Position numbers and translations under genes: made by a program. Below, one piece after another: positions 6,557-22,571 of a stretch of DNA of 64,000 nucleotides; position 1 is the stretch's first letter, and each line of letters opens with the position of its first letter. Location: NCBI GenBank assembly GCA_016213105.1, contig JACRBN010000003.1, forward strand, positions 62,001 through 126,000, in the 5' to 3' direction. The DNA is from Chloroflexota bacterium (GTDB lineage: Bacteria > Chloroflexota > Anaerolineae > Anaerolineales > Villigracilaceae). The notes under the pieces were generated by a model that was not told where the DNA came from, made no database searches, and saw only the letters and a program-made list of their open reading frames with translations.

Positions 6557-9500
6557 CTAAGGCAGATTGAAAGCGCTGACGATGAAGACTGCCATTTGTG
6601 CGCGGGTGACGCCCTGGGTGGGGCAGAATTTCCCACCACCGCAGCCGCCTGTGATACCTTCCTCGGCAAGCTGCTCGACCCAGCGCGCGGACCAACGACT
6701 GACAGGGACATCCGAGAAGACGCCGGTGGCCGGGGGCGGGGTGTAGGTACTACCGTGTTTCATGCGCAGGATGAAGACCGCCATCTCCTCGCGCGTCACA
6801 GATTTGTCCGGACAGTATTTCAACGGGCTTGTCGAACAGCCGCCGGTGACGCCCTGTGCGTATAAGGCCTCAATCCATTTGGCCGCCCAGTGGCTGGCGG
6901 GGACGTCACTGAAGACGGTGCCCGTGGCGTTGGGGGGAGTGTAGGCTGCCCCGTTCTTCGCCTTGAGCAAGAAGACTGCCAGTTGGGCACGGGTAATCAC
7001 GGTGTCGGGGCAGTATTTCAGCGGATTCGTCGAACAGCCGCCCGTCACGCCGTTGAGGTACAGGTTCTCTATATAGTTGACAGCCCAATGGGTGAACGGA
7101 ACATCGGCAAAGATGGGTGTTGGGTTGCCATTGTCGTCAAGGATGATGGTCGCGCCGACGAAGGGCCCGAGGCGCCCTTCGATGTCCATGATGGCCACCC
7201 GCCAATAATACGTGGCCCCGGGGGAATAGGATGTGGTTGGCGTCCAGCGGGTATTATCGGTCGTGAACGACTCGTACGCGGGACTGAAGTTCGAGTTCTG
7301 CGAAGACTCGAACTTGTACCTGGCCGCGCCCGGCACTGCCGTCCATACGAACGTGGGCGTGGAGGTGAGAGTTACTCCCGAGGCCGGGCTGAGCAGCGTG
7401 GAGATGGGGTATTGCTTGGTGAAGGTTGTCGAGGCGCTGTACTGACCCAGGATGCCGCTGCCATCGAACATGGCCACGCGCCAGTAATACTGGCCGTCAT
7501 CGTATCCGCGGGTCGGCGTCCAGCAGCTTTGCTCCGTGTCGATGTTGTCGTAGATGTTCGAGAAGGTGGGTTCCGTGCTGACCTGGACACGATACCTCCA
7601 CGCGGCCAGCACCGGGTCCCCAGCGAGTGAATTTGCGATCAATGGAGTCCAGCACAGGGTCGGGGCGTGTCCCACGACGCCAGATGGGGTGTGGGTCAGG
7701 CCGCTAGGTATGGGCAGGGTCAGGGTAAAGCTTTGGGCGTCTGTCCAATTGTTGATTACGTCTCCGAAACGACGGACGCGCACCCGCCAATGATAGGTGG
7801 CATTCGACAGTGTGTTGGCGTCTGTGTAGGAGTTCTGGCGGGTGTTGATGTTGATCTGGGGCGAACCGAAGTTCGGGTCGTCGTCGACCTGCAAGTCATA
7901 GGATTCGGCGCCTTCGACCATATTCCAACTGAAGGTGGGGGTGGCGAAGGTCACCGAGGTCGCCAGGTTCTGTGGTCTGAAGCCCTTGCGTTCGAAACGC
8001 CAGCCCTGACTCCAGGCGCCGAGATAGAGATCGCCTCCCACCCGGTAACGGGGCTGAATTCGCCAGAAATAGGTGTTATCGCCGGAAAAGTCATCCTCCC
8101 AGGCATGGGTTGTTTGTGCAAAGTAGGCGGTATCGGATGTTAAGAAGAACTCCGCTTGCTTGGAGGTAAAGGCCGGGTCCAGATGGGCCTGCATGATCGC
8201 TCCCGACCAGGGAGCGAGAACGGGCCAATCCCAAAAGAATGGCTGGACGGACGGGTAGGTGGAAGGATCCACTCCGGCGTCATTGGGCGGCATCGAAAGA
8301 TTCATACGCTCGGTTACGTTGGAAAAGCGGCTGATCGGTCCGCTGCCTGGAACATTCGAATTGGCGGGAACGGAATCCTGCGGTTGGCCGCTGCTGGCTG
8401 GCAGGCTGAATAAGGCTGCCGTATAACTGCCGGTGGTATCCTGATAGCCAATGGCGGTATTGGGGATCTGGATTTCGACATAGGTGCTGGTTTGATAGAC
8501 TTGTCCACCGATGCTGTCGAGAATGTTGACCGTGTCCCATTCTGCGCCATTCCAATGATAGACGAAGACGTTTTCGGCGGAAAAGCTGCCCGAGACCCGC
8601 ATAAGGTAAACGATGTATTCGGGCCGGTAACCTGGAATGGTGGACAGGGTGTAGCCGCGGGCATCGCTGGGCGCACCGGAAGAATCCACGTGGTCAGTAT
8701 CCAGGTAGAGGGCATACGTGACATTCAGGGCGGGAGCGCTGGGGACCTGGAATCCGAAGTGCCAATAGCCGCTCGACTGGGCAACCTGCAGGTTGGTCAG
8801 ATCGTAACTGGCCGTGGCAACATCGCTGGCCGGGTCGGAGCCGATCTGCAGCCGATTGGCGGTATTGCCGATGGTGCGGGTAAATTGCCATTGGCTTTGG
8901 GCGGCGATCTGGAAGCGGCGGGTTTCACTCCACGCGCCGCTCGGGGATTGACGGACGCGCCAGTAGTAAATCCCAAAATTCACGTCGCCGAGGTTGCGCT
9001 GCGCCAGGCTTTGCGTGGGGATATAAGCCGGATTGGAAACGGTGGCGGTATCCACGGTGGCGCTGAAATCCTCGTTCTGGCTGATCTGCACGTCGTAGGC
9101 TGTGGCGCCGGTGATCGGGAACCATTCCAGCAGGGGGGTGGTCTCGGCGAATTCAAAGCCGCTCGTGGGGCGGATCAGGCTGGGGGCGGAGCCGGCTGTG
9201 GAGGCGGGCAGGCCCAGCGCGGGATCGAAGCGGGTCTTCCACACCTGGCTCCACTGCCCGACCAGGCTGCCGCCAATCAACGGGCGGACGCGCCAGTAAT
9301 AATTCGTGTTCGTCAACGGTGTGAAGGGATTGCTGGTCGTCGGTGCAGCCACGAGATTTTCCGTGTCCACGGTCCAATTTATCGACATGAAGGTTGCATC
9401 CGTGGAGACCTGCACGCGGTACGCCTGGGCGTAGACCTGGCCCTGGTTGGCATCACCGGAAGGCACGTAGACACGATTCCAGATGAAAATGGGCAGGGGC

Positions 9501-10852
9501 ACGGTTCGATCTTCATGGGGATTGGTCGTCACTCCGCTGTAGCCGGGGTAATTATCGGGGGTGTAGTAGAAAAGCGGATATACCAGTTGGGGAGCCACCG
9601 AATTATAGTAGCTCACGTAGGAGGCAGTGTTGCTGGTGGATCCCGCAAATCCGTTGCCGTCGTAAGGAGTCACGCGCCAGTAATAGGTGCTTGCCCCCCC
9701 ATAATAGTTGTATGGAGTATAGAACGTGTTGGCGGTATTGCCGGCGTCATAGATACTGCTAAAACCCGGTGAAAAACTGAGTTCAACTCTGTAATAGCTG
9801 GCGCCGGGCACGGGTGTCCAACTGAAGACTGGAAAACGCACATGCTGGTAGTTGTTGACGGGCGTAAGCAGGGTTGGTTTGATATACCATTTCTTCACGA
9901 AGGTGCGGCTGGGCGACCAGTTCGAGATCGACTCACCTGAATGTACTCTCACCCGCCAGTAGTAGTTGACGTCGTTCGATAACGTTTGGGTGGGTGTATA
10001 GGACGTGTTGCGCGTGTCGATCTGGTTCACCCCGGAACTGAAACTGGGGTCGGTGGTGTATTGCAGGCGGTAATATTGCGCGCCGCGTATCGCAGACCAG
10101 CGAAAGGTGGGGGTGAAGGTGGGCGTGGCGAAATCGTTGGGTTCGAGCAAGGTGGGCGCAGTGCTGTAGCTGAGGGTAAAGGAACGTTCACTGCTTGGCG
10201 TGCCATCGCGGTTGCCGGTGTCGATGGGCACGACACGCCAATAATACGTGCCATTGGCCTGTTTGACGTTTGGCTGGTGGGTGGTTGCCAGCGTCGTCAC
10301 ATTGTAGAGCGGGGAGCCCCAGCCGCCCGGGCTGGAGTAGATTTGTAATTTGTAACGGGCTGCCCCAGTCACCGCCCCCCAGGAGAAGACGGGCTGGTCA
10401 TAGAAGCTGAGGGAAGCGCCATTGTCCGGGGCGGTGAGGGCCGGCAAATTGGCGGGAGTGGCCCATTGCTTGGTGAAACTCCAGATACTGCTGAAGGCGC
10501 TGACCTCGGGCGATTCCACCCTGACGCGCCAGTACCAGGTGCCATCTGAAAAAACGCTCGAATTGGTGGGCGTATAGGTGGTGTTGGGCGTATTGATATC
10601 AAGGATCCAGCTCGTAAACGCAATGTCGCTGCTGACTTGCAGGCGATACACCGTCGCGCCAGTGACCGCCGACCACTTGAATTCCGGGATCCCAAGCGGC
10701 GGGGTATCCACCACCGTCGTGGTCGTCGTATTGGCGGGAGCGATCAGGGTTGGCGCATTGAGCGCATAAGCAGAAGTTGAGGCGATGGGGCTGAGAGTCA
10801 ACGAAAGGACAACAAGCAATACGCCCACCTGTCTTAGCCACTTTAGATTCAT
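6557..10852 (-). CDS. Giant secreted surface protein: FnIII-like repeats plus three SLH domains
   Basis: A 1431-residue exported protein. The signal peptide (MNLKWLRQVG, then a hydrophobic core ending SAYA) is followed by roughly ten repeats of about 95 residues with the pattern FxWxxVxGAxxYRLQVSxD...YYWRVR, resembling fibronectin type III modules. A region around residues 690-830 looks like a separate beta-sandwich. Three S-layer-homology domains end the protein (FSDVPxxHWA...GVTGGCS...KYCPD...VTRAQMAVF), the usual anchor to cell-wall polymers. The start is set by GGAGG at 10858-10862, five bases before the ATG at 10852; a longer frame to 10999 lacks a site and would hide the signal peptide. 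Role: cell-surface scaffold or adhesin (inferred). Confidence 0.9.
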   Translation of the reverse strand: MNLKWLRQVGVLLVVLSLTLSPIASTSAYALNAPTLIAPANTTTTTVVDTPPLGIPEFKWSAVTGATVYRLQVSSDIAFTSWILDINTPNTTYTPTNSSVFSDGTWYWRVRVESPEVSAFSSIWSFTKQWATPANLPALTAPDNGASLSFYDQPVFSWGAVTGAARYKLQIYSSPGGWGSPLYNVTTLATTHQPNVKQANGTYYWRVVPIDTGNRDGTPSSERSFTLSYSTAPTLLEPNDFATPTFTPTFRWSAIRGAQYYRLQYTTDPSFSSGVNQIDTRNTSYTPTQTLSNDVNYYWRVRVHSGESISNWSPSRTFVKKWYIKPTLLTPVNNYQHVRFPVFSWTPVPGASYYRVELSFSPGFSSIYDAGNTANTFYTPYNYYGGASTYYWRVTPYDGNGFAGSTSNTASYVSYYNSVAPQLVYPLFYYTPDNYPGYSGVTTNPHEDRTVPLPIFIWNRVYVPSGDANQGQVYAQAYRVQVSTDATFMSINWTVDTENLVAAPTTSNPFTPLTNTNYYWRVRPLIGGSLVGQWSQVWKTRFDPALGLPASTAGSAPSLIRPTSGFEFAETTPLLEWFPITGATAYDVQISQNEDFSATVDTATVSNPAYIPTQSLAQRNLGDVNFGIYYWRVRQSPSGAWSETRRFQIAAQSQWQFTRTIGNTANRLQIGSDPASDVATASYDLTNLQVAQSSGYWHFGFQVPSAPALNVTYALYLDTDHVDSSGAPSDARGYTLSTIPGYRPEYIVYLMRVSGSFSAENVFVYHWNGAEWDTVNILDSIGGQVYQTSTYVEIQIPNTAIGYQDTTGSYTAALFSLPASSGQPQDSVPANSNVPGSGPISRFSNVTERMNLSMPPNDAGVDPSTYPSVQPFFWDWPVLAPWSGAIMQAHLDPAFTSKQAEFFLTSDTAYFAQTTHAWEDDFSGDNTYFWRIQPRYRVGGDLYLGAWSQGWRFERKGFRPQNLATSVTFATPTFSWNMVEGAESYDLQVDDDPNFGSPQININTRQNSYTDANTLSNATYHWRVRVRRFGDVINNWTDAQSFTLTLPIPSGLTHTPSGVVGHAPTLCWTPLIANSLAGDPVLAAWRYRVQVSTEPTFSNIYDNIDTEQSCWTPTRGYDDGQYYWRVAMFDGSGILGQYSASTTFTKQYPISTLLSPASGVTLTSTPTFVWTAVPGAARYKFESSQNSNFSPAYESFTTDNTRWTPTTSYSPGATYYWRVAIMDIEGRLGPFVGATIILDDNGNPTPIFADVPFTHWAVNYIENLYLNGVTGGCSTNPLKYCPDTVITRAQLAVFLLKAKNGAAYTPPNATGTVFSDVPASHWAAKWIEALYAQGVTGGCSTSPLKYCPDKSVTREEMAVFILRMKHGSTYTPPPATGVFSDVPVSRWSARWVEQLAEEGITGGCGGGKFCPTQGVTRAQMAVFIVSAFNLP

Positions 10853-11071
10853 TGCTTCCTCCATGGGATTGTATGAGAACAATTGGGATGGTCTCTGTTG
10901 CGATGTACTTCTAAAGTGGTGCTGACTGCCTTTAAAAATTCCTATTAACCAGCGGTCCAGACAAACCAAATTCAACCAATAGGGTAAAGTATTTCTCATC
11001 TTTTTTTAAGTGACGAATATCACATTTTTATAACAGTTTTGAAAGGAATTATTTTTGGAATTTTAAATACA

Positions 11072-11125: not shown

Positions 11126-13663
11126 TTATCTTGTAAACTTCTTCTGCCACTCGAACAGCTTATTCAGCGCCTCGATGGGCGAAATCTCATTGATGTCCAG
11201 TGACTTCAACTCATCCAGCAGCGGATTGGTCTCGGGGAAGAGCGCCACCTGCTGCGCCGTATGTGGGTTGATCTTCACCGCGCGGCCCGAGGTCTTCTCC
11301 AATTCGGCCATGATCTCGTTGGCGCGCGCAATCACGGGCCTGGGCAGCCCGGCCAACTGCGCCACGTGGATGCCGTACGAGCGATCCGCGCCGCCCGGCA
11401 CGATCTTATGCAGGAAGACTACCTTGCCGTCCGCCTCGCTGACCGCCACGTTGTAATTGCGTACGCCAGGCAGCAGGTCGGCCAGTTGGGTCAGCTCATG
11501 ATAATGTGTGGCGAACAGCGTCTTGGCGCGCAGTTGCGGATGATTATGGATGTACTCGATCATGCCCCACGCAATCGAGACGCCGTCGTAGGTAGAGGTG
11601 CCGCGCCCGATCTCGTCCAGAATCAGCAGCGAGCGCGAGGTGGCGTGATGCAAAATATTGGCCGCCTCGATCATCTCGACCATGAAGGTTGACTGCCCCG
11701 CGTGGATCTCATCCTGCGCGCCGATGCGGGTGAAGATGCGGTCCACCAACCCGATGCGGGCCGAGGCAGCGGGCACGAACGAGCCCATCTGCGCCATCAG
11801 CACGATCAGCGCGGCCTGCCGCAGGTAGGTCGATTTACCCGACATGTTCGGCCCGGTGATGACGCGCACGATCTCGCCCGCCTCGAAGTGGATGTCGTTC
11901 GGGACGTAGCGCTCGCCGCGCAGGGAATGTTCGACGACGGGATGCCGCCCCTCCTGGATATCCAGCCCAAAACCTTCCTGGACCTCGGGGCGGGTGTAGC
12001 CTCCGAGAGCGGATGCCTCGGCGAGGGCAGCCAGCACATCCAGCTCGGCCAGCGCGCGCGCTGTCTCGAGCAGCCGAAACGCGGACTTGGATAACTCCGC
12101 GCAGACTTCCTTGAACAGCCGCAGTTCGATCTCGCGGATGCGTTCCTCGGCATTGAGCACCAGCGTCTCGTATTCCTTCATCTCGGGCGTGATGAAACGC
12201 TCGGCGTTGACCAGCGTCTGCTTGCGGATGTAGGACTCGGGCGCCCTGTCCGCCGCGCCGCGTGAAATCTCGATGTAATAGCCGAATACCTTGTTGTAGC
12301 CAACCTTGAGCGTCTTGATGCCCGTCTTCTCGCGTTCGACCGCTTCCAGGTTGGCGATCCACTCGCGGGCGTGACGGGAGGCTTCGATCACACCGTCCAG
12401 CTCGGCCGAATAGCCCGCGCGGATGATGCCCGTATTTTGCAAGGTGGCAGGCGGGTCATCGTCGATGGCGGATTGGAGCAGTGATAATTTGTTGTCCGAT
12501 AATTCGATGCTGGGCAAATTGCCAATTTGCCCCACGGCTTCCCTGACCTTTGGCAATTGTCCCAGCGTGCTGCGCATCGCCACCAGGTCGCGCGGCTGGG
12601 CCTGTCCTGCCATGACGCGGTTGACCAGGCGCTCCAGGTCGGCCAGCGGCTTGAGCGCGGCGCGCGTCTCGGCGCGGAGCATGCCATTGTCGAAGAAGTA
12701 TTGCACGCCTTCCTGCCTAGCCTGAATCTTGGTCACATCCAGCAGGGGTTGGCTGACCCAGGCGCGCATCAGGCGTTTGCCCATCGGCGTGACGGTATGG
12801 TCGAGCACACTCAACAGTGAGCCTTTGATCTCGCCGCGGAGGGTTTCGGTCAATTCCAGGTTGCGGCGGGTGGCGGCGTCCAGGGTCATGAACTCGGACA
12901 GGCTGTAATGGCGCAGTCCCGTCAGCAGGTTGAGCGAGTCAGGTTGGGTATCCTTGAGGTATTGCACGATCACGCCTGCCGCGCGGATGGCGAGTCCGTG
13001 GCCTTTGATGCCGAAGCCATCCAATGAGCCTGCCTTGAAGTGCGCCAGCAGGGTCTCCTCGCATTTGCCAGGCTCGAAGCGCCAGGCGGGGAGCGGCGTG
13101 AAGTGGCCCTGGAAGCCGTCGTTGGGTTTTTGGTTGTCGGGGTGGAGGATCTCGGCGGGATGCAGGCGTGTCAGTTCGGCGCGCAGGGCTTCGGCGCTGA
13201 GTTCGGTCACGGCGAACTCGCCGGTGGTGATGTCAGCGTAGGCCACGGCGGCGGATTTCTCATCTAAAAAGACAGAAGCCAGATAGTTGTTCGCGTCACC
13301 GGGTAACAAGCCAGGCTCCACTACCGTCCCAGGCGTGACGACCCGCACCACCTTGCGCGGGAAGATGCCCTTCTCAGGCTGATCGCCGACCTGTTCGCAG
13401 ATGGCGACGTGATAGCCTTTCTCGATCAGCCGCGCAAGATAATTTTCCACGGCGTGATAAGGGATGCCCGCCAGCGGCGCGCGCACACCCTTGCCCACAG
13501 GGCGCGAGGTCAGCACGATGTCCAGTTCGCGGGCCGTGATCTCGGCGTCCTCGTCGAAGGTCTCGTAGAAGTCTCCCAGGCGGAAGAACAGGATCTCGTT
13601 GGGATGGTTGCGCTTGATTTCCAAATATTGCTGGCGGACAGGGGTGATATCGTCGTTGGACAT
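11126..13663 (-). CDS. mutS: DNA mismatch repair protein MutS
   Basis: An 845-residue MutS, the mismatch-recognition ATPase. The N-terminal mismatch-binding domain carries the FFRLGDFYETFDEDA motif, whose Phe and Glu contact the mismatched base. The Walker A motif GPNMSGKST lies near residue 605, the Walker B DEIGRGTSTYDG near 685, and FATHYHELTQL follows. Length is normal for bacterial MutS1. The ATG at 13663 lies about 27 bases after a TATAAT box. Its first eight codons and promoter are duplicated upstream of rfbF (see repeats at 13640 and 18296). The last gene on this strand before it is the deoxysugar operon, so read-through from the operon into mutS is also possible. Confidence 0.97.
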   Translation of the reverse strand: MSNDDITPVRQQYLEIKRNHPNEILFFRLGDFYETFDEDAEITARELDIVLTSRPVGKGVRAPLAGIPYHAVENYLARLIEKGYHVAICEQVGDQPEKGIFPRKVVRVVTPGTVVEPGLLPGDANNYLASVFLDEKSAAVAYADITTGEFAVTELSAEALRAELTRLHPAEILHPDNQKPNDGFQGHFTPLPAWRFEPGKCEETLLAHFKAGSLDGFGIKGHGLAIRAAGVIVQYLKDTQPDSLNLLTGLRHYSLSEFMTLDAATRRNLELTETLRGEIKGSLLSVLDHTVTPMGKRLMRAWVSQPLLDVTKIQARQEGVQYFFDNGMLRAETRAALKPLADLERLVNRVMAGQAQPRDLVAMRSTLGQLPKVREAVGQIGNLPSIELSDNKLSLLQSAIDDDPPATLQNTGIIRAGYSAELDGVIEASRHAREWIANLEAVEREKTGIKTLKVGYNKVFGYYIEISRGAADRAPESYIRKQTLVNAERFITPEMKEYETLVLNAEERIREIELRLFKEVCAELSKSAFRLLETARALAELDVLAALAEASALGGYTRPEVQEGFGLDIQEGRHPVVEHSLRGERYVPNDIHFEAGEIVRVITGPNMSGKSTYLRQAALIVLMAQMGSFVPAASARIGLVDRIFTRIGAQDEIHAGQSTFMVEMIEAANILHHATSRSLLILDEIGRGTSTYDGVSIAWGMIEYIHNHPQLRAKTLFATHYHELTQLADLLPGVRNYNVAVSEADGKVVFLHKIVPGGADRSYGIHVAQLAGLPRPVIARANEIMAELEKTSGRAVKINPHTAQQVALFPETNPLLDELKSLDINEISPIEALNKLFEWQKKFTR

Positions 13664-13703
13664 GGGCTCTCGTTTTGGTGGTTTGAGTTATTATACTAAC
13701 TGG
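13640..13703 (-). repeat. Direct repeat copy 1: mutS promoter and first eight codons
   Basis: These 64 bases recur at 18296-18358. The first 33 bases (13640-13672) are identical to the other copy and encode MSNDDITP plus the leader just before the ATG. The rest differs by a few substitutions and one gap. It includes a TATAAT box (minus strand, 13690-13695) in a shared CCAGTTAGTATAATAA stretch. The two copies bracket the whole deoxysugar operon. Confidence 0.9.
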
Positions 13704-13790
13704 CACAGGCATTCCTGGTGACAAATGCAGGCGGAGGTCATCCCTTTTTTTCTGCTTTGCTGAAAATAAGCAAAGGAAGGATTCGCATAA

Positions 13791-14687
13791 TTATTTGTCA
13801 GAGGATGAAATGGGACGCGTCAATTCCTGCGCCATTAATTTCAGGCCTTCGCGATAACCGATGACAGGCGTCTTTGTGAGCGTAGAGACCCTGTCTGTTT
13901 TCAGCCCCGCCTTCATGGGACGTCTGGCAGGCTGAGCCAGTTCAGCGGTAGTGACGGGGCAAATCAGGCCTTTATCCAGGCCGAAAACTTCGGCGGCGTG
14001 GAGCGCAAATGCATATCGGCTGACGCAGTCGGGTCCTGTTACGTTGATGATACCCTGCAGGGAAGAGTTGCCAAGTTCAAAGGCGATCTGCGCCAGGTTG
14101 TTGACGTAGGTCGGACTGCCAATCTGATCGACGGGCACTCGTACAGAGGTTCCATTACGCAGGGATTGGATCAGGCGGAAAACGAAATTCTTTCCCTGTT
14201 TCTCCCATCCGTACACCACGGTAGTGCGGATGATGAGGAAGTTTTCTGCGAAAAGGGAAATGAAGTGTTCCGCTTCCAGTTTTTGCCGCCCATATTCGCT
14301 GACGGGGTTGGCTGTATCTGTTTCATCATAGGGCCCATTTTCGCCATCGAAAATGAAGTCGGTCGAAAAGTGAATAACGCGCGTGCCAGCGTTGTTGGCT
14401 GCCTGAACGACATTTTTTATGCCGGCCACGTTGGTCTGGTAGGTTTCGGCGGGATGACTTTCGCAGTAATCCACATTGGGGAGGGCGGCGGGTAGATATA
14501 CTGCGCTGGGCTGTATGTCTGAGAACAACCCGGCCACCTCGAAGCGCTTCCTGATATCCAGCCGAATTCCAGACGGGATCGGTGTGGAGTGATATGTGGC
14601 GATCGGTTGACGCTCATCTGCCCCAAGGGTTTCAACCAGATGGGCCCCGATCATGCCCGATGCGCCAATGACGATGCTTTGCCTCAT
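13791..14687 (-). CDS. RmlD-like sugar-nucleotide reductase (SDR family)
   Basis: A 298-residue short-chain dehydrogenase with the Rossmann motif IGASGMIGAHL at the N-terminus, the HFSTDFIFDG segment, and the catalytic EYGRQKLEAE (YxxxK). It most resembles dTDP-4-dehydrorhamnose reductases, which reduce a 4-keto sugar nucleotide. Here it would act on the product of the upstream RfbH and epimerase, most simply as the final reductase to a CDP-3,6-dideoxyhexose. The ATG at 14687 overlaps the previous stop as ATGA, indicating translational coupling; a start at 14705 lies inside that gene. Last gene of the five-gene operon. Confidence 0.82.
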   Translation of the reverse strand: MRQSIVIGASGMIGAHLVETLGADERQPIATYHSTPIPSGIRLDIRKRFEVAGLFSDIQPSAVYLPAALPNVDYCESHPAETYQTNVAGIKNVVQAANNAGTRVIHFSTDFIFDGENGPYDETDTANPVSEYGRQKLEAEHFISLFAENFLIIRTTVVYGWEKQGKNFVFRLIQSLRNGTSVRVPVDQIGSPTYVNNLAQIAFELGNSSLQGIINVTGPDCVSRYAFALHAAEVFGLDKGLICPVTTAELAQPARRPMKAGLKTDRVSTLTKTPVIGYREGLKLMAQELTRPISSSDK

Positions 14688-15133
14688 TTGTGGACGATAT
14701 CCCAATTGTAGGGGATGTGGCTGTGGTGCGGGTCGAGGCGGCTGATCTCGTTTGGGTCATGTGGAAGTGTGGCGCAGTTGGCGATCAGGGCAGGGAGGGT
14801 GCCAACCCCTTTAAATCCGTTCCACACCCTTGGCGGAATCTTGACGAGCGCATAATTCCCTTCCCCGACAAATAATTCCATCAATTCGCCGCGGGTTGGG
14901 GATTCCTCCCGTTCATCGTACAAGACCAGTTTGATGGTTCCCATCAGAACGGCATAGTTCAAGGTCATCTCTTTGTGTATATGCCAGCCCTTCACCACGC
15001 CCGGGTAGACGGTCGAAAAATAGATCTCTCCGAATTTTTCGAAATGAGCGTCATCGGCTCGCAACATGTGCATGATCTTCCCGCGCTCGTCAGGGATCTG
15101 CCGCAGCGGGTGAATCAAAACGCCATCGATCAT
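14684..15133 (-). CDS. RmlC-like cupin epimerase (dTDP-4-dehydrorhamnose 3,5-epimerase family)
   Basis: A 149-residue cupin related to sugar-nucleotide 3,5-epimerases. The family histidine appears in VVKGWHIHKEMT (His51 and His53), and PPRVWNGFKG matches the conserved strand after it. It is shorter than RmlC proper (about 180 residues). Sitting between rfbH and an RmlD-like reductase, it could be a C5 epimerase on a CDP-4-keto-3,6-dideoxysugar, as in ascarylose synthesis. That substrate is an inference from gene order. It ends in an ATGA overlap with the next gene and starts three bases after the rfbH stop. Confidence 0.8.
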   Translation of the reverse strand: MIDGVLIHPLRQIPDERGKIMHMLRADDAHFEKFGEIYFSTVYPGVVKGWHIHKEMTLNYAVLMGTIKLVLYDEREESPTRGELMELFVGEGNYALVKIPPRVWNGFKGVGTLPALIANCATLPHDPNEISRLDPHHSHIPYNWDIVHK

Positions 15134-15136
15134 ATC

Positions 15137-16450
15137 TCATCCTTTACATAGTTTTTCCAGCATGTCGCCCATATAATCGAGCATGGGTTGGGTCAGGCCT
15201 GGGTAAACACCGATCCAGAAAACACGCTGCATCACCTCGTCTGCGTTATGGAGGTTGCCCACGGTACGGTATGTTTGACCTCGATAAGCGGGCTGACGGA
15301 TCAGATTCCCGCCGAAGAGAAGGCGGGTTCCGATCTTGTTGGCGTTCAGCCAGCGGACGGTGTCGTTGCGGCTGAACGGCGCTTCCGGCCGCACCAGGAT
15401 GGGGAACCCGAACCAACTGGGATTTGAGTTGGGGGTGGCTTGCGGGAGGAGGAAAAATTCCTGCAGGTGGGTCAGGCGTTCGGTCAGGTAGTTGAAGTTT
15501 TCGCGGCGACGCTGGATAAATCCCTCCAGCTTTTTCAGTTGCGAGACTCCCACCGCTGCCTGCATGTCTGTGGCTTTCAGGTTATAACCAATGTGAGAGT
15601 AGGTAAATTTATGGTCATAGCCTTGAGGCAGTCCGCCTAGCTGCCATTCAAACCTCTTCCCGCAGGTATTGTCCTGCCCGGTTTCGCACCAGCAATCTCT
15701 GCCCCAATCGCGGAAGGACTCGACCAACTTCTTGAGCGCTGGCTGGTCCGTGAGGACGGCGCCGCCCTCACCCATGGTGATGTGATGTGCCGGGTAGAAG
15801 CTGACCGTTGCCAGGTCCCCAAACTTTCCAACCGCCTGGCCGTTATAGGTGGCGCCGACTGCATCACAGCAGTCTTCGATCAGCCACAGATTATGTTTTT
15901 TGCAGAAGTCGGTGACTGTGGCAAGGTTGAAGGGGTTGCCAAGTGTGTGGGCCGCCATGACCGCCCGGGTTTTGGGCGAGAGCGCAGCTTCGAGTTGGGG
16001 TGTATCGATGTTGTAGGTGGGGATATCCATATCTACAAACACAGGGACGAGGTTGTTCTGGAACATGGGATTGACCGTGGTTGGGAACCCCGTGGCGACG
16101 GTGATTACCTCGTCGCCAGGCTTGAGCTGGCGATCGCGCAAAGTGGGGGAGGTGAGGCAGGTCAATGCGAGAAGGTTGGCAGACGAGCCGGAATTGACAA
16201 GGATGGCATGCCGAAGGCCAAAGAAGCCGGCGAATTCCTTTTCGAATTGCGCGGCAAATCTTCCTGTGGTCAACCAAAAGTCGAGACTCGAATCCACCAG
16301 TGATTGGACATCTGAAGTGTCGAACACGCGACCCGCCACAGGGATGGGTGTTTTGCCTGCAACGAATTCGCCGGGAAGGAAGGCCTCCGCCGAATATTCT
16401 GCGACCAGTTCCAGTATCCTGGAACGTAATTGATCAGATTTTTCACTCAT
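15137..16450 (-). CDS. rfbH: CDP-4-dehydro-6-deoxyglucose 3-dehydratase (E1), PLP and [2Fe-2S] enzyme
   Basis: A 437-residue RfbH/E1 enzyme, which removes the 3-hydroxyl of a CDP-4-keto-6-deoxyhexose to build 3,6-dideoxysugars. It belongs to the DegT fold, but the PLP-binding lysine is replaced by histidine ([13 protein letters not shown], His222), the hallmark of this family. The iron-sulfur spacing C-X57-C-X1-C-X7-C is present exactly (Cys195, 253, 255, 263). The ATG at 16450 gives the family's usual length and follows GAAGAG; an upstream ATG at 16507 would overlap the preceding gene. No E3-type reductase partner is visible in the window. Confidence 0.95.
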
Positions 16451-16481
16451 GTTTTTCTCTTCATTGTTGTGGAAGCGGCCG

Positions 16482-17510
16482 TTACGATTTCCAGTGGAGT
16501 TGCTCATCCAGGAGATCGGCGCCTAGCAGGTGTTTGAGTTGATTAAGGCGGATATATTTTCTTCCTTCGAAATCCTGCAGGGTCAGGCCAAAGGCATGGT
16601 ACGCTTGGCGTAACTGCTGTGCCCCGAGTCGGGCATTCCATTTTGGTTTGTATTCGGGCAGTAGTTTGGATATTTTTGTAAAATCCACGCGATAGTTGCG
16701 TGGATCGGGCCTGCCCTGGCCTGCGTATTCCACCGTTGAATTTGGCACGGTTTCTCGCACGATGTCAGCCAGATCAGACACACGGTAATTTTCTGTGTTG
16801 GCGCCAACGTTGAAGGCTTGGTTGTGGATGGTTTCCCGTGGGGCTGCCAGGCTCAGAACGAACGCCTGCGAAATGTCCTCGATGTGGACGATGGGCCTCC
16901 AGGGTGTGCCATCGCTCATGATGTGGATCTTGCCCGTAGTGCAGGCCCAGGCCGTAAGGTTGTTGAGAACGATGTCGGCGCGCAGGCGTGGGGAGAAACC
17001 ATAGGCTGTGGCATTGCGCAAGTACACGGGAGAAAAATCGGGGCCAGCCATTTGGGAGAGGCCTTCCTCGGCGCGCACCTTTGATTCTGCATAGGGCGTG
17101 ACGGGGGCCAGCGGGGCCTCCTCGGTCAGAATATCATCGCCCTGGCCTGCTCCGTACATGCTGCAGGAAGACGCATACAGGAAGCGCTTGACGCCTGCAT
17201 CTCGTGCGACCTGCGCCAGCCTCAGCGTGGCGTGTAGATTGATATCGTAGGTCCAATCCCTTTTAAGATCGCCCAGGGGGTCGTTCGAAAGCGCCGCCAG
17301 GTGAATGACCGCATCCATGCCTTGCAGGTCTTCGACAATCACGTCTCGAATATCTTTACGCAGGCAGGGAATCGCAGGTGGTGTGGCACCAAGAATACAT
17401 TCCTCGAAGAAATCCGTATCCAGGCCGGTGACTTCATGCCCGGCTTGTTGTAATTTTTCCGACATGATCGTTCCAATGTAGCCATGATGACCAGTTAATA
17501 AAACGCGCAT
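16482..17510 (-). CDS. NAD-dependent epimerase/dehydratase (extended SDR) of the CDP-sugar operon
   Basis: A 342-residue extended SDR starting [13 protein letters not shown], the NAD-binding TGxxGYIG motif. It has the SSCSMYG serine region and PYAESK with the catalytic YxxxK. It does not show the GHTGFKG start typical of RfbG, the CDP-glucose 4,6-dehydratase expected between rfbF and rfbH. It therefore either fills that role or is a different epimerase. GGGAG inside the end of rfbF lies five bases before the ATG at 17510. The 3' end lies 31 bases before the chosen rfbH start. Confidence 0.82.
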
Positions 17511-17512
17511 GT

Positions 17513-18283
17513 TTACTCCCATACTTTCCAGGGGGCAACCCCATCCTGCCACAAGCCTTCCAGCATTTTTTTATCGCGCAAGGTATCCATGCACTGCCAG
17601 AAGTCGGCGTGGCGGTATGCCGCCAGTTGATTGTCGGCGGAGAGGCGTTCGAGCGGTTCGCGCTCCCAATAAGTGGAATTTCCATCAACGTAACGGACAA
17701 TCTCTGGTTGGAGAACAAAAAAGCCGCCGTTGATCCAGCCCTCGCCAACCTGGGGTTTTTCTTCGAAGCGATTGATCTGGTCGCCGTCGAAGATCAGTTG
17801 ACCGAAGCGGGCCGGTGGGCGGACCGCAGTGAGCGTGGCGAGTTTCCCGTGCCTGCGATGGAAGTCCAGCAACTCGGCAATGTTCACGTTGCTGACTCCG
17901 TCTCCGTACGTTAACATGAAAGGCTCGTCTCCAACGAACTCGGCAACCTGCTTCACCCTTCCACCTGTCTGGGTCTCGTAACCTGTGTCCAATAAGTGGA
18001 TGGTCCAATCTTCGCTTTCACGTTTGTGTATCGTCACGGCGCCCGTTTCTATCTGAACGGTAAGATTGTGCGAGTAGTGATGATAGTTCAGAAAATAATC
18101 CTTGATCATCTCCCCTTTATATCCGAGCGCCACCACGAATTCCTTGAAGCCAAAGCTTGAGTACGTTTTCATGATATGCCAGAGGATGGGCTTTCCGCCG
18201 ATCTCGACCATCGGTTTTGGTTTGATCGTGGTCTCTTCGGAAAGGCGTGTTCCCAATCCGCCAGCCAGGATGGCAACTTTCAT
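17513..18283 (-). CDS. rfbF: Glucose-1-phosphate cytidylyltransferase
   Basis: A 256-residue nucleotidyltransferase making CDP-glucose from CTP and glucose-1-phosphate, the first step to CDP-deoxysugars. The start MKVAILAGGLGTRLSEET and the KPMVEIGGKPILWHIMK segment are diagnostic for RfbF. AAGGA six bases before the ATG at 18283 supports that start. An in-frame ATG at 18320 would add MSNDDITPKGNR. The first eight of those residues are the mutS N-terminus, copied with its promoter (repeat 18296-18358), so some RfbF may carry this 12-residue extension. First gene of the operon. Confidence 0.95.
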   Translation of the reverse strand: MKVAILAGGLGTRLSEETTIKPKPMVEIGGKPILWHIMKTYSSFGFKEFVVALGYKGEMIKDYFLNYHHYSHNLTVQIETGAVTIHKRESEDWTIHLLDTGYETQTGGRVKQVAEFVGDEPFMLTYGDGVSNVNIAELLDFHRRHGKLATLTAVRPPARFGQLIFDGDQINRFEEKPQVGEGWINGGFFVLQPEIVRYVDGNSTYWEREPLERLSADNQLAAYRHADFWQCMDTLRDKKMLEGLWQDGVAPWKVWE

Positions 18284-18295
18284 GCGGTTTCCTTT

Positions 18296-18358
18296 AGGGG
18301 TGATATCGTCGTTGGACATGGGCTCTCGGTGTGTGGTTTGACTTATTATACTAACTGG
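18296..18358 (-). repeat. Direct repeat copy 2: mutS-derived promoter and leader in front of rfbF
   Basis: A near-copy of 13640-13703. Bases 18296-18328 are identical to the mutS leader and first eight codons, and TATAAT recurs on the minus strand at 18345-18350. Here the MSNDDITP codons run in frame into rfbF (KGNR, then MKVAIL). The five-gene operon thus appears to use a copy of the mutS promoter. The opposite side faces the divergent membrane-protein/phosphotransferase module. Confidence 0.9.
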
Positions 18359-18416
18359 TGTATAAAATTGACTTCGTGTTTCTGGAGCAATTCGTGAATC
18401 GGTTGGAGCTTTTCTT

Positions 18417-18959
18417 ATGCTGCGAGTACTGACATCCCGCCTGCCAGGCCGTGGGGAAATTGGCTCGGTATATGCGGTCATTTTGTTCTTTTTATTCGGA
18501 TGGGTAACGATCATCTTTTTCTGGAAATTCCCTGCCTGGCTGTATTACGCAAATTTGGGGGAGGTTGCGATCTTTTACCTGTACACTGCGGCGACGGAAG
18601 CGTTGGAGGGACTTGTCTATTTGGCGGCTATTTTGTTGCTCAGCGCCGTTCTGCCCGCCTCATGGTTTAAGGACAAATTCACCGTGCGCGGAACCATCGC
18701 GGCCCTTGCGCTGCCTGCCTGGCTGTTGTTGGTGCAGTATTTTATCGCGTATCATGAATTCGGGCGCGGACCGGCTGTCCTGGCGGCCACACTGATCAGC
18801 GGGGGATTGGCAGCTTTGTGGATGTGGCTCTCCATGAAATACATTGCCTTAGAACGCATGGCCCGCCTGTTGGCGGAACGCACCCCCGTTTTTCTATATG
18901 TGTACATTCCGATCGCTATCATTTCCTTGACGATTTTGCTGGTCAGGAACCTGGGATGA
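18417..18959 (+). CDS. Small membrane protein, first copy of a duplicated module
   Basis: A 180-residue protein with about four membrane segments (for example residues 18-36, 60-80 and 90-110) and no recognised family. It resembles the product of 20503-21039. Both share the W-F-K/R-D-K/R-F-x-x-R-G loop, the LLAER-T-x-FLYx(Y/F)-x-P region and the closing ILVRN. Each precedes a Tat-exported alkaline-phosphatase-superfamily enzyme with which it overlaps, so the pair probably acts together at the membrane. GGAG eight bases upstream sets the ATG at 18417. Divergent from rfbF. Confidence 0.8.
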   Translation: MLRVLTSRLPGRGEIGSVYAVILFFLFGWVTIIFFWKFPAWLYYANLGEVAIFYLYTAATEALEGLVYLAAILLLSAVLPASWFKDKFTVRGTIAALALPAWLLLVQYFIAYHEFGRGPAVLAATLISGGLAALWMWLSMKYIALERMARLLAERTPVFLYVYIPIAIISLTILLVRNLG

Positions 18960-20506
18960 TGTCCAGCCGTTTTAGCCGCCGCGATTTTCTCAAAACCGCA
19001 GGAACCGCCATGCTGCCGCTGCTGTTCCCCAGGCAGGCGCTTGGATTGGAGTCCCTGCTGCGAAACGGGAAGAAGCCCAACGTCCTGGTGATCGTGCTGG
19101 ATACGCTGTCCGCGCCGCACATGTCAGTGTACGGCTATCCGCGTCCCACCACGCCCGCGCTGGAGAAGTTTGCCGAACGATCCATTGTCTATCATTCTCA
19201 TTACGCGGCGGGAAATTTCACCACACCCGCCACGGCGTCCATGCTGCTGGGGTGTGAACCGTGGACGCATCGCGCCATCAACCTGTTTGGGCTGGCCAGG
19301 CGCGACCAGGTTGAACGCAACCTGTTCCGCCGGCTGGGCGATTCGTATCACAAGATCGCCTTCACCCAGAACATGCTGGCCGAGTTGCTGCTGCGCCAGT
19401 TCCACGCGGACATCGACCAGCACCTGCCCTTCACCTTCTCCAGCCGCGACCTGACCACGCTGGGCATCAGCCAGCACCTGCCGAATGACTCGGTCGCCTC
19501 CTTCTATGCCTTCGACGATTTTCTGGCGACCCGCCGCGAGAACGATGGCCCGCTGGCAGGCTCGCCGCTGCTGGGCCTGCTCGACATCCTGCGCAAGGAG
19601 CGGGAGACGGTCGAGAGCGACGCCTATCCGCTCGGAACGCCCTTCAATAATTATTACACCTACACCAACGCGGAGACCTTCCAAAATATTTTGCAGGTGA
19701 CAGAAAAAGCGCGCCAGGGCGACAAGCCCTACTTTGGCTATTTCCACCTGTGGACGCCGCACGAGCCGTACCGCCCGCGCGCGGAATACCTCGGCAAATA
19801 CAAGAAGGATGGCTACGAGCCAGTTGCCAAACCCGAACATGCGCTGACCGAGACCAATCGCGCGGAGAAGAATTTGCTGCGCCTGCGCCAGACCTACGAC
19901 GAGTACATCACCGACGTGGACGCCGACCTGGGCCTGTTCCTGGAGGCGCTCGAATGCAGCGGCGCGCTGGACGATACATACGTGATCATCACCTCGGACC
20001 ACGGCCAGCTGTTCGAGCGCGGCGAACACGGTCACAATACAGCCTTGTTGTATGAAGATGTCCTGCGCATCCCCTTGATCGTTTCCGTGCCCGGCCGCTC
20101 GGACCGCGTCGATGTCCGCACCCCGACCAGTTCCATCGACCTGCTCCCGACCCTCGTGGTTCGTCTACTGGGGCAGGTCGACCTTGCTTATCCAGGGATC
20201 TTCCTGCCCGGGCTGGGTGGCATCGAGGATTGGGATCGCAGTCTCTTCTCGATGGTGGCGAAGGACAACTCCGCCTTTGCGCCCATCAAACACGCCAGCC
20301 TGTGCATGATCCAGGGCACCAAGAAATTGATCCATTACGCGGGGTACGGGGAGTACGACGGGAAGAGCGAGTTGTACGACCTGGCAGACGATCCCAATGA
20401 GATGAAGGATCATGCAGCGGGGGACCAGGCCACCACTGCGCGCATGCGCGATGAACTGCTGACCGCGCTGGAAGCCGCCAACCAGGAAGTGGCCCAATCC
20501 TCATGA
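18956..20506 (+). CDS. Tat-exported sulfatase-fold enzyme with Thr nucleophile, copy 1
   Basis: A 516-residue alkaline-phosphatase-superfamily protein. The N-terminus has a twin-arginine signal, SRRDFLKTAG, so it is exported folded. Metal-site elements are VIVLDT (Asp49), GYFHLWTPHEPYRPR and ITSDHGQLFERGEHGHN. At the position of the sulfatase CxPxR motif it reads NFTTPATAS. There is no Cys or Ser to become formylglycine, and a Thr (89 or 90) takes the nucleophile place, as in phosphoglycerol or phosphoethanolamine transferases. A phosphotransferase or phosphodiesterase acting on surface polymers is more likely than a true sulfatase. The start overlaps the previous stop. Confidence 0.85.
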   Translation: MMSSRFSRRDFLKTAGTAMLPLLFPRQALGLESLLRNGKKPNVLVIVLDTLSAPHMSVYGYPRPTTPALEKFAERSIVYHSHYAAGNFTTPATASMLLGCEPWTHRAINLFGLARRDQVERNLFRRLGDSYHKIAFTQNMLAELLLRQFHADIDQHLPFTFSSRDLTTLGISQHLPNDSVASFYAFDDFLATRRENDGPLAGSPLLGLLDILRKERETVESDAYPLGTPFNNYYTYTNAETFQNILQVTEKARQGDKPYFGYFHLWTPHEPYRPRAEYLGKYKKDGYEPVAKPEHALTETNRAEKNLLRLRQTYDEYITDVDADLGLFLEALECSGALDDTYVIITSDHGQLFERGEHGHNTALLYEDVLRIPLIVSVPGRSDRVDVRTPTSSIDLLPTLVVRLLGQVDLAYPGIFLPGLGGIEDWDRSLFSMVAKDNSAFAPIKHASLCMIQGTKKLIHYAGYGEYDGKSELYDLADDPNEMKDHAAGDQATTARMRDELLTALEAANQEVAQSS

Positions 20507-21039
20507 ACCTGCGCAATCGCCTTCCCTCCTTTAACCAAATCCTCTCCGCCTACGCCGTGATCGCGTTCATGCTGTTCGCGTGGGCGCTGCTGTGGTTCTT
20601 CTGGAACATCCCCTCCTGGACGAAATTCATGACGCTGGGTTATCTTGTGGCGACGCTCAGCTATCCCATGGCGGCCAGTTTTCTCGAAAGCCTGACCATT
20701 CTCGCCCTGCTGCTGATCCCCGCCATGATTCTGCCCGCCGCCTGGTTCAGGGATCGTTTCGCGGCGCGCGGCGCGGCTGTGACGCTCGGCCTGCTGGGCG
20801 TGATCATGCTGCGCGACTACCTGATCGTTGTTGATAACTTCCTCCTCAAGCCGAAGCCCATCTTCTGGCTGACCCTGTCCCTGTCGACCGCGCTGCTGCT
20901 CTTCCTGGCCGTGAAATTCCAGTGGATGGAGAAGGCCCTAACCCTGCTGGCCGAGCGCCTGACGATCTTCCTTTATATCTTCGTCCCATTGTCCGTGATT
21001 TCCCTGCTGGTCATCCTGGTGCGGAACATTACCTTATGA
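20503..21039 (+). CDS. Small membrane protein, second copy of the duplicated module
   Basis: A 178-residue paralogue of the protein at 18417, with four predicted membrane segments and the same AAWFRDRFAARG loop and C-terminal LVRN. The ATG overlaps the stop of the preceding enzyme gene (ATGA), and its own stop overlaps the next ATG. All four genes of the module are therefore translationally coupled. No known domain was recognised. A scaffold or membrane partner of the Tat-exported enzyme is inferred from strict co-occurrence in both copies. Confidence 0.8.
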   Translation: MNLRNRLPSFNQILSAYAVIAFMLFAWALLWFFWNIPSWTKFMTLGYLVATLSYPMAASFLESLTILALLLIPAMILPAAWFRDRFAARGAAVTLGLLGVIMLRDYLIVVDNFLLKPKPIFWLTLSLSTALLLFLAVKFQWMEKALTLLAERLTIFLYIFVPLSVISLLVILVRNITL

Positions 21040-22571
21040 ACCTGGGCAGACGCGACTTCCTCAAGGCGCTGACCGTGCTCTCGGCGGGATCATTGGCGGC
21101 GGCCTCCCTCCCGAGTCTGGGCCGTCTGCGCGCTCCCAGCGACAAGCCCAATCTGGTCATCCTGGTGCTGGATGCGTTGACCGCCCGCAATTTGTCGGTG
21201 TATGGCTACGCCAGGCAGACGACGCCCAATTTGGATCGGCTGGCCGCGCGCGCCACGGTCTACCACGCGCATTATTCGGCGGGAAATTTCACCACGCCTG
21301 GCACGGCCTCCATGCTGACGGGCCTCCTGCCGTGGACGCATCGCGGCATCAACCTGGGCGGATTGATCCACGAGCAGTTCGTGGATCAAAATATCTTCAG
21401 CCTGTTACAGGATGAATATTTCACGGCGGCTTTCACGCAGAATTATTACGCGGATATCCTGCTGGGACAATTCCGCCGCGGCATCGACCGCCACATCATA
21501 TCCTCTTCCTATTATGAGCAGGTCGACCGTCCGCTGTTGGGACAGTATTTCCCGAATGATCCCGTCCCGACCTACTACGGCCTGGATGATTTCGTCTTCT
21601 CAGGTCGCAGCGTGCCCTCCTCGCCGTTCTTTGCCTTCCTGGCCGACCTCTTTCAGGAAACCGCCAGTCTGGAGGATCATCCCCAGGCGGGCTATCCCTA
21701 CGGCCTGCCGAATAATTTCTTTTACAGTTACCGTAACGATGTGGCCTTCGCGGGCATCCAACAGGAAATTCTCAACCTGGCGCAACAATCGCCCTTCCTG
21801 GGGTACTTCCACATGTTCTCCCCGCACGAGCCGTATCGGCCACGTCAGGAATTCGTCGGGAAGTTTCCGAAGCTGGACATGCCCTTCAAGAAGCCGACCA
21901 AGTTCTCAACCCTCGACATCAGCCACGAGTCGATCCAGGCGCGGCGCATGGATTACGATGAGTATGTCGCGGATGTGGACTCGGAGATCGGCAAGCTCGT
22001 GGACGGCCTGAGCGCGGCGGGCGTGATGGACAACACCTGTTTCATCATCACCTCGGACCACGGCGAGATGTTCGAGCGCGGCGAGTACGGCCACATCACG
22101 CGCTTCCTGTATGATGCGGTGATCCACATCCCGCTGCTGGTGCTGGCCCCAGGCCAGACCGCCCGCGCCGACGTGACCGCCCCGACCAGCGGACTCGACC
22201 TCGCGCCGACCCTGCTGCATTTGGCGGGGAAACCCGTCCCTGCGGGGCTGGGGGGCAGGATCCTGCCTGGGCTGGGCGGAAGGGCCGACTCGGAGCGGAG
22301 TATCTTCACAGTCGAGGCCAAGGAGAATTCCTCCTTCGGGCCGCTCATTCAGGGTACAATTTCCCTTATCCAGGGCCATTCCAAGCTGATCCATTACATG
22401 GGATATCCGAAGAAGCCCGAGACATTTGAGTTGTATAATTTGCAGGATGATCCCGAGGAAATGAAGGATTTATTCGAAGCCGATACGTCCACGGCTTCAT
22501 CTATGAAGGAAGAAATGCTCGATTCGCTCGCAGACGCCAATCGGCCTTTTGTAAAAAATCAATCCAAGTAA
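21036..22571 (+). CDS. Tat-exported sulfatase-fold enzyme with Thr nucleophile, copy 2
   Basis: A 511-residue paralogue of the enzyme at 18956. A twin-arginine signal (LGRRDFLKALT) begins the protein. VLVLDALTA carries the metal Asp46, NFTTPGTAS has Thr86 or Thr87 as probable nucleophile, and YFHMFSPHEPYRPR and ITSDHGEMFERGEYGH complete the metal site. As in copy 1 the sulfatase Cys/Ser is absent. The coupled start overlaps the previous stop. It is followed 12 bases later by gpmA. The proximity to a deoxysugar operon and an SLH protein suggests a role in modifying surface glycans or polymers (inferred). Confidence 0.85.
   Translation: MNLGRRDFLKALTVLSAGSLAAASLPSLGRLRAPSDKPNLVILVLDALTARNLSVYGYARQTTPNLDRLAARATVYHAHYSAGNFTTPGTASMLTGLLPWTHRGINLGGLIHEQFVDQNIFSLLQDEYFTAAFTQNYYADILLGQFRRGIDRHIISSSYYEQVDRPLLGQYFPNDPVPTYYGLDDFVFSGRSVPSSPFFAFLADLFQETASLEDHPQAGYPYGLPNNFFYSYRNDVAFAGIQQEILNLAQQSPFLGYFHMFSPHEPYRPRQEFVGKFPKLDMPFKKPTKFSTLDISHESIQARRMDYDEYVADVDSEIGKLVDGLSAAGVMDNTCFIITSDHGEMFERGEYGHITRFLYDAVIHIPLLVLAPGQTARADVTAPTSGLDLAPTLLHLAGKPVPAGLGGRILPGLGGRADSERSIFTVEAKENSSFGPLIQGTISLIQGHSKLIHYMGYPKKPETFELYNLQDDPEEMKDLFEADTSTASSMKEEMLDSLADANRPFVKNQSK

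Follow-up and report, generated by a model that had tools for sequence, protein, structure and literature searches.

Why does the start of mutS, together with its promoter region, occur twice in one short stretch of this genome, once at the intact gene and once in front of an operon for sugar biosynthesis? The stretch, referred to here as the window, comprises 64,000 nucleotides of contig JACRBN010000003.1 (positions 62,001 to 126,000) of a Chloroflexota bacterium from the family Villigracilaceae (assembly GCA_016213105.1). On its reverse strand a five-gene rfb operon is bracketed by two copies of a segment of about 64 nucleotides (nt), with copy 1 (13640..13703) at intact mutS and copy 2 (18296..18358) just before rfbF. 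The repeat itself is real and can be accounted for in outline as the scar of a rearrangement; with confidence a little better than even, we lean towards a local rearrangement that carried the rfb block from behind mutS to its front. The evidence for this is an empty site in a closely related genome, the flanks of the two copies and the position of rfbF relative to mutS in other members of the family.

The repeat was established by its de novo recovery as two adjoining direct alignments, 13640-13677/18296-18333 (95% identity) and 13678-13703/18333-18358 (96%), which when aligned together give 64 columns at 93.75% identity (E 1e-19 to 1e-22) around a perfect core of 33 nt. In mutS coordinates it spans -40 to +24, and each copy contains a TATAAT box (13690-13695 in copy 1, 18345-18350 in copy 2), the leader, the ATG and the codons for MSNDDITP, the box preceding the ATG by 26 nt and 25 nt, respectively. 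Past codon 8, copy 1 continues into mutS (11126..13663, reverse strand; TIGR01070, 1007 bits) and copy 2 passes through AAAGGAAACCGC into the in-frame ATG of rfbF. The initial annotation had described a repeat of about 64 bases, 33 of them identical, with the box, leader and eight codons in each copy and an in-frame run of the second set into rfbF, all of which was borne out. Codon 8 of copy 2 is fused to rfbF at a first junction (18281..18295, reverse strand) that consists of the rfbF leader AAAGGAAACCGC, an AAGGA stretch resembling a ribosome site and the rfbF ATG. Judging from the frame, an N-terminally extended MSNDDITPKGNR-RfbF begun at the mutS-derived ATG is possible; by eye, the internal ATG appears the likelier start of RfbF because AAGGA directly precedes it.

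Across the 5.39-Mb genome, only copies 1 and 2 matched a gapped exact pattern that spans 45-46 nt of the repeat and would overlook diverged copies. Comparable direct repeats (45-400 nt, at least 85% identity, E<=1e-8, spacing 1-16 kb) were rare, with eight alignments in four of 79 loci (1.29 Mb, partly overlapping), namely the window, genome G003 with the mutS stub described below and two others; these loci were selected around mutS, so the rate is not a genome-wide one. Consensus scans for promoters and terminators in both copies and in the gap 3' of mutS found nothing. Additionally, a promoter-like pair, TTGACT-17 nt-TATAAA (18338..18366, forward strand), was noted by eye; it overlaps copy 2 and may serve the divergent membrane/sulfatase module beyond it. 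The consensus scan misses this pair, as its rule demands a T at the end of the second hexamer, and at the equivalent place copy 1 reads TTGAGT without a TATAAA-like second hexamer (by eye).

The polarity of the duplication can be read from genome G001, the sole other genome of the window's genus in the compared set, whose MutS is 94% identical. The initial annotation had anticipated that a related genome might retain an empty site with the sulfatase-fold module directly before mutS, and G001 establishes that such a site exists: its order is sulfatase gene (reverse), membrane gene (reverse), one promoter copy, mutS. The sequence upstream of this single copy, GAAGTCAATTTTATACA-CCAGTTAG, extends copy 2 and not copy 1, and the flank of copy 2 is 96% identical to G001 over 23 bases. 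Because the single copy of G001 carries the flank of copy 2, copy 2 is, judged by its sequence, the ancestral promoter region of mutS, still in its original setting, and copy 1, at the intact gene, has the new flank. The upstream side of copy 1 is thus the second junction (13704..13790, reverse strand), the stretch from the rmlD stop to copy 1, for which no significant match among the compared relatives' loci, and no source, was found. At the DNA level mutS itself is 86% identical to that of G001; there is no abrupt change towards its 5' end, where the first three windows of 120 nt have 88-93%, and a single dip to 66% is seen at 360-480. It had been proposed that the operon took over a mutS promoter while mutS kept one; both copies do retain the TATAAT box and the mutS start, but the ancestral flank lies at copy 2, leaving mutS behind the newer junction.

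Two alternative explanations of the repeat can be weighed on these observations. That the second copy is an assembly artefact is scarcely credible, even for a draft genome of 28 contigs, as both copies have unique flanks within a 152-kb contig and differ from each other, and the flank of copy 2 is independently matched by G001. A reversible cassette, in which RecA-dependent loop-out between the 64-bp repeats would restore the order seen in G001 and the surface sugar would vary in the population, is very improbable. The direct orientation, the perfect 33-nt core and the 94% identity over 64 nt would suit such an exchange, and deletion would recreate a promoter-mutS junction like that of G001, but divergence outside the core shows that exchange does not keep the copies identical, and 64 bp is a short substrate for recombination.

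Where the operon resided before it came to lie in front of mutS is suggested by the wider family. With the window's own genome counted in, 37 of the 152 family genomes contain rfbF at E<=1e-90; mutS could be located in 32 of the other 36, on the same contig as rfbF in 15 and on a different contig in 17. The usual downstream position is established by the same-contig relatives, which represent six genera: in all 15 of them rfbF lies downstream of mutS, no further than about 26 kb from the mutS start, and in six (G148, G093, G094, G003, G103 and G008) it is on the mutS strand. The block at this neighbouring position includes four of the five genes in G148, where the order is mutS, further frames, rfbF, an rfbG-like gene (by eye), rfbH, a glycosyltransferase-like gene, a 506-aa gene, cupin, rmlD, a 371-aa frame and hppA; identities to the window are 74% for rfbF, 71% for rfbH, 74% for the cupin and 49% for rmlD, and a 22-nt overlap between cupin and rmlD is common to both. 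In G141, rfbF, rfbH, cupin and rmlD likewise adjoin hppA, on a contig from which mutS is absent. The gene that follows mutS overlaps its 3' end on the same strand in three genomes, being rfbF in G003, a gene for a membrane protein in G001 and a 382-aa frame in G148, so that surface-type genes may be transcribed together with mutS in these genomes. In G003 it is the mutS stop and the rfbF start that overlap. Because of such overlaps, the operon of the window may already have been on the mutS transcript before the move.

By comparison, none of rfbF, gene 2, rfbH, cupin and rmlD was found upstream of mutS in 98 other mutS loci. These were picked for long contigs in two batches, one of 38 (21 from the family, 17 from the order) and one of 60 from the family, and take in 81 of the 129 other family genomes that have a mutS match; 88 of the 98 offered at least 5 kb of upstream sequence. 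In the second batch, 50 of the 60 loci have a divergent gpm gene on the upstream side of mutS. The initial annotation had held that relatives with the same operon and no repeat would speak against its account, in which the operon was inserted at the mutS start by a duplication event. Such relatives exist in the form of operons downstream of mutS, and they change the story while leaving the duplication standing: a move across mutS fits better than an insertion from elsewhere because the operon looks native and is downstream of mutS in relatives.

The identity and origin of the five genes, all on the reverse strand, bear on this point. The first is rfbF, encoding a glucose-1-phosphate cytidylyltransferase (17513..18283; TIGR02623, 393.6 bits against a cut-off of 300), followed by gene 2, a short-chain dehydrogenase/epimerase (16482..17510; PF01370) that stands where relatives have an rfbG-like gene and reaches only 25 bits against the CDP-glucose dehydratase model, far under its cut-off of 278. 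Next are rfbH (15137..16507; PRK15407, 739 bits, cut-off 423), whose start may be an internal ATG, a cupin related to dTDP-sugar isomerases (14684..15133; PF00908), which overlaps rmlD by 22 nt, and an rmlD-like reductase gene (13791..14705; PF04321; 203 bits, below the TIGR01214 cut-off of 224). The label of a CDP-deoxysugar operon has only partial support: RfbF and RfbH are secure, as they exceed curated cut-offs, gene 2 and RmlD do not reach theirs, and the cupin has no specific family. The family origin of RfbF was established in a tree of 62 sequences (from 30 of the 37 family genomes, plus the first 32 outside sequences at least 57% identical), where the window's RfbF falls inside a clade of 27 family sequences (support 98/95), nearest to G148 and G141 (87/66, weak).

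Gene 2 has a different distribution. A search of 36 other family genomes gave no match at E<=1e-70; in the same order, three of 24 genomes have one, at 51-55% identity. Its named relatives, among the best 80 of 168 loci, are 53-63% identical and belong to Chloroflexota, Cyanobacteria, KSB1 and other groups. Some rfbF match accompanies 71 of these 80, and in 50 an rfbF at least 45% identical ends no more than 300 nt before the gene 2 relative; rfbH-like genes were seen around seven, rmlD around three and the cupin around one, and the five-gene set does not recur. Because gene 2 lacks matches in the family while RfbF nests in the family clade, gene 2 looks as if it had been swapped in from a foreign source, in an event of its own, within a cluster typical of the family. 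The operon otherwise looks native to the family and to the mutS locus, where relatives have it downstream. Insertion of a foreign operon as a whole was set aside, since RfbF is native to the family and only gene 2 looks foreign.

On this basis a course of events can be proposed, in which we infer the mechanism, the order of steps and the activity of the promoters. The ancestral order would have been the divergent membrane/sulfatase module, the promoter, mutS, the rfb genes and hppA. The rfb block would then have been copied to the 5' side of mutS, with the rfbF leader joined to codon 8 and the region after rmlD joined to position -40. Both junctions could arise in one template-switching repair event, running past mutS to rfbF and back to -40, which would leave a second operon copy to be lost; alternatively, a tandem duplication of promoter, mutS and operon followed by two deletions, one of them removing the first mutS body, would reach the same order in three steps. 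In either case the downstream operon copy would have been lost later, and gene 2 would have been swapped for a foreign dehydrogenase at an unspecified time. The present state would then be one in which the ancestral mutS promoter region stands before the sugar operon, and a second copy of that region serves mutS. A possible relic of the lost operon copy lies behind mutS, where the bases after the stop, AAACCTGCATGA, resemble the rfbF leader, AAACCGCATGA, over 12 nt; the resemblance is faint, as 316 of 42,636 windows score equally.

Several points weigh against this proposal. With a longer leader, 1188 of 18,274 windows match the score of the relic, which is too weak to count. Nine of the 15 same-contig relatives have their downstream rfbF in the opposite orientation to mutS, and in 17 of 32 genomes the two genes are on separate contigs. 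G001 has no rfbF at E<=1e-90, and because of this the ancestral downstream operon has to be deduced from other genera. An intermediate with the operon on both sides, or with two mutS genes, was found in none of the 98 other loci, although it may be unsampled. Of the two copies, copy 1 is by eye the more diverged from G001, which would suit an imported copy too, and the breakpoint falls in a motif used by known mutS-targeting elements.

The last two points lead to two rival explanations. The main rival, which we consider unlikely, is a one-sided import by homology-facilitated illegitimate recombination, in which a relative's operon-promoter-mutS segment paired at mutS and its far end was joined to the resident codon 8, leaving the resident promoter and eight codons before the operon. 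One homologous side and one non-homologous junction would leave a single orphan 5' stub that carries the promoter of the resident gene, the greater divergence of copy 1 from G001 (by eye) would be expected, and excerpts of one report (PMC5361080) propose this mechanism for orphan gene arrays elsewhere. It needs, however, a donor in which the operon precedes mutS, an order seen in 0 of the 98 loci, and the 5' end of mutS shows no step in divergence.

Genome G003 offers a second case on which the import can be judged. It carries an orphan mutS 5' stub (-10 to +179), then sulfatase genes, then a complete mutS, and is the only clear coding duplication of the mutS 5' end among the 98 loci. The polarity is like that of the window, which the import would also explain, and the breakpoint is different (about codon 60). 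Sequence upstream of the stub resembles that upstream of mutS in G079, G082 and G027 of the same genus, and is unlike that of four other same-genus genomes, while the region upstream of the complete G003 mutS resembles none of these seven equally well. The stub is nonetheless nearest to its own mutS (score 71, against at most 67 for 77 compared sequences), which slightly favours duplication in G003. It is interrupted by about 205 bp (L036 10886-11090, mutS-oriented) with inverted ends GGTTACAAATTGCGC / GCGCAATTTGTGACC, which looks like a small non-autonomous inverted-repeat element.

Apparent hidden duplications at contig ends within the mutS start of G080 and G073 were rejected, being exact contig overlaps of 109 and 99 bases in a stretch shared between species (by eye). 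Second mutS matches in G114, G151 and G169 were left out of the counts, and the mutS of G126 is apparently split by a frameshift. Short coding matches in G030 (16 nt) and G037 (19 nt), both at chance level (E 0.009), were not counted, nor were several non-coding or inverted matches and the repeats of G087, which are confined to the region upstream of mutS.

The other rival, decidedly unlikely in our judgement, is a decayed mobile element targeting mutS: an integrase-bearing element with sugar cargo would have entered the start motif, orphaned the promoter and start of the host gene, given mutS a new promoter and start, and since lost its integrase. The topology is that of mutS elements of Beta- and Gammaproteobacteria, as far as they are described in excerpts of PMC5296598. 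The block is also flanked by direct repeats, and an empty site exists. This rival was kept because the breakpoint, DDITP|VRQQ, coincides with the equivalent of the motif, ITPVRQQ aligning with HTPMMQQ of MutS chain 7ou2_A. Against it, no match to an integrase family was found among the five genes, and among the matches listed (five of six; contigs C2, C19, C25 and C28) no tyrosine recombinase lies on the mutS contig, no search for serine recombinases having been made. Furthermore, the repeat spans from -40 up to the motif and not across it, the relatives of the cargo reside downstream of mutS, and the G003 stub breaks at about codon 60, away from the motif. An autonomous site-specific island was set aside, no integrase having been found. 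A classical transposon was likewise rejected: there is no transposase among the five genes and, among the four inverted repeats listed, none of at least 20 nt at the block ends, and a target-site duplication of 64 nt would be unusually long for a transposon.

The local move across mutS may itself be one instance of a wider pattern. The two stubs suggest that the mutS locus in this family is a place of surface-glycan gene swapping that has left mutS pieces behind at least twice. A bolder and speculative extension, to which we give low credence, is that the mutS 5' end is a recurrent anchor for the exchange of surface glycan and sulfatase modules in the family, incoming or duplicated DNA repeatedly breaking into and rebuilding mutS and orphan promoters driving surface genes (in the window and G003). 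Were this true, surface chemistry and mismatch repair would be rearranged together, as physically coupled traits. The scar is a readable one of how an operon can switch sides of a conserved gene, with a promoter region kept by both.

The surroundings of the locus were also compared. Divergent from copy 2 are genes for a 180-aa protein (no family match; membrane-like in appearance) and a sulfatase-fold enzyme (18417..20506, forward strand); the latter name, used in the initial annotation, is correct for 18956-20506 (PF00884). Such two-gene modules, of an approximately 180-aa protein and a sulfatase-fold enzyme, are repeated in varying number in the window (18417-22571) and in many relatives, where they lie upstream of mutS or gpm and divergent from mutS. 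Between the window and G001, the members of the mutS-adjacent pair share only 41% and 62% identity, set against 93-96% for mutS, gpm and the gene at 23430, and 83% for the next sulfatase. On the 3' side of mutS, a 1480-aa repeat protein (6557..10999, reverse strand), with a C-terminus that reads by eye like S-layer homology repeats, fills the place where G001, G003 and G148 have glycan-type genes; this C-terminus is 50% identical to a 1426-aa protein beyond hppA in G001. Further beyond mutS, the window has hppA and a further large protein in the order of G001.

In many relatives a TANAAT box stands about 6-9 nt before the mutS ATG (by eye), the distance being about 26 nt in the window and G001; because of this close spacing, a leaderless mutS mRNA is suggested in those relatives. 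In addition, the MutS proteins of L051 (G014) and L054 (G059) carry an insert of about 400-450 residues with an intein-like look in the ATP-binding loop (GPNMSGK / C...HN / STYLRQ), and an insert in G018, G026, G097, G162 and G086 was deduced from long frames or split matches.

Comparison with known systems was made on excerpts of the cited papers, and what follows is limited to these. Among papers listed for mutS with Anaerolineae gene clusters, nothing on such an arrangement was apparent, and those listed for duplication with gene order were mostly mitochondrial or eukaryotic. The nearest published topology found is that of mutS mobile elements in Vibrio splendidus 12B01 and other proteobacteria, which insert near HTPMMQQ, orphan the host start and supply a new start and promoter (PMC5296598). 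As in those elements, the host mutS promoter and start are orphaned upstream, a gene block lies between, mutS has a different upstream region, and the breakpoint follows ITP of ITPVRQQ, aligned to HTPMMQQ; unlike them, the window has no integrase that was found, its 64-nt repeat includes the promoter box, and genes related to the block lie downstream of mutS in relatives. SpyCI islands of Streptococcus pyogenes reside at the 5' end of mutL, carry an integrase gene and control mutL by excision and reintegration (PMC3430984). The likeness is in the target only, a block of DNA adjoining the 5' end of a gene for mismatch repair, whereas mutS of the window retains a promoter-like box and no sign of switching was seen. 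Because no integrase was found, the feature is filed under neither of these groups.

Closer in process are rearrangements without a dedicated element. A spontaneous tandem duplication can capture a promoter in laboratory selection (PMC11111574), and there, as here, duplication by illegitimate recombination would place a promoter before another gene; that event was recent and selected in the laboratory, while that of the window would be old, with one operon copy later lost. For immunity arrays of the Vibrio type VI secretion system, displacement by homology-facilitated illegitimate recombination at a conserved anchor has been proposed (PMC5361080); a conserved stretch as anchor and orphan pieces left behind are common to both, but the arrays retain orphan immunity genes and the window an orphan 5' promoter stub. 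Deletion-born fusions reported in a preprint (PMC12803068) similarly join the start of one frame to another gene through rearrangement, whereas mutS in the window donates only eight codons and its promoter and survives intact. Set beside these systems, the feature looks like a rearrangement scar rather than a new kind of system.

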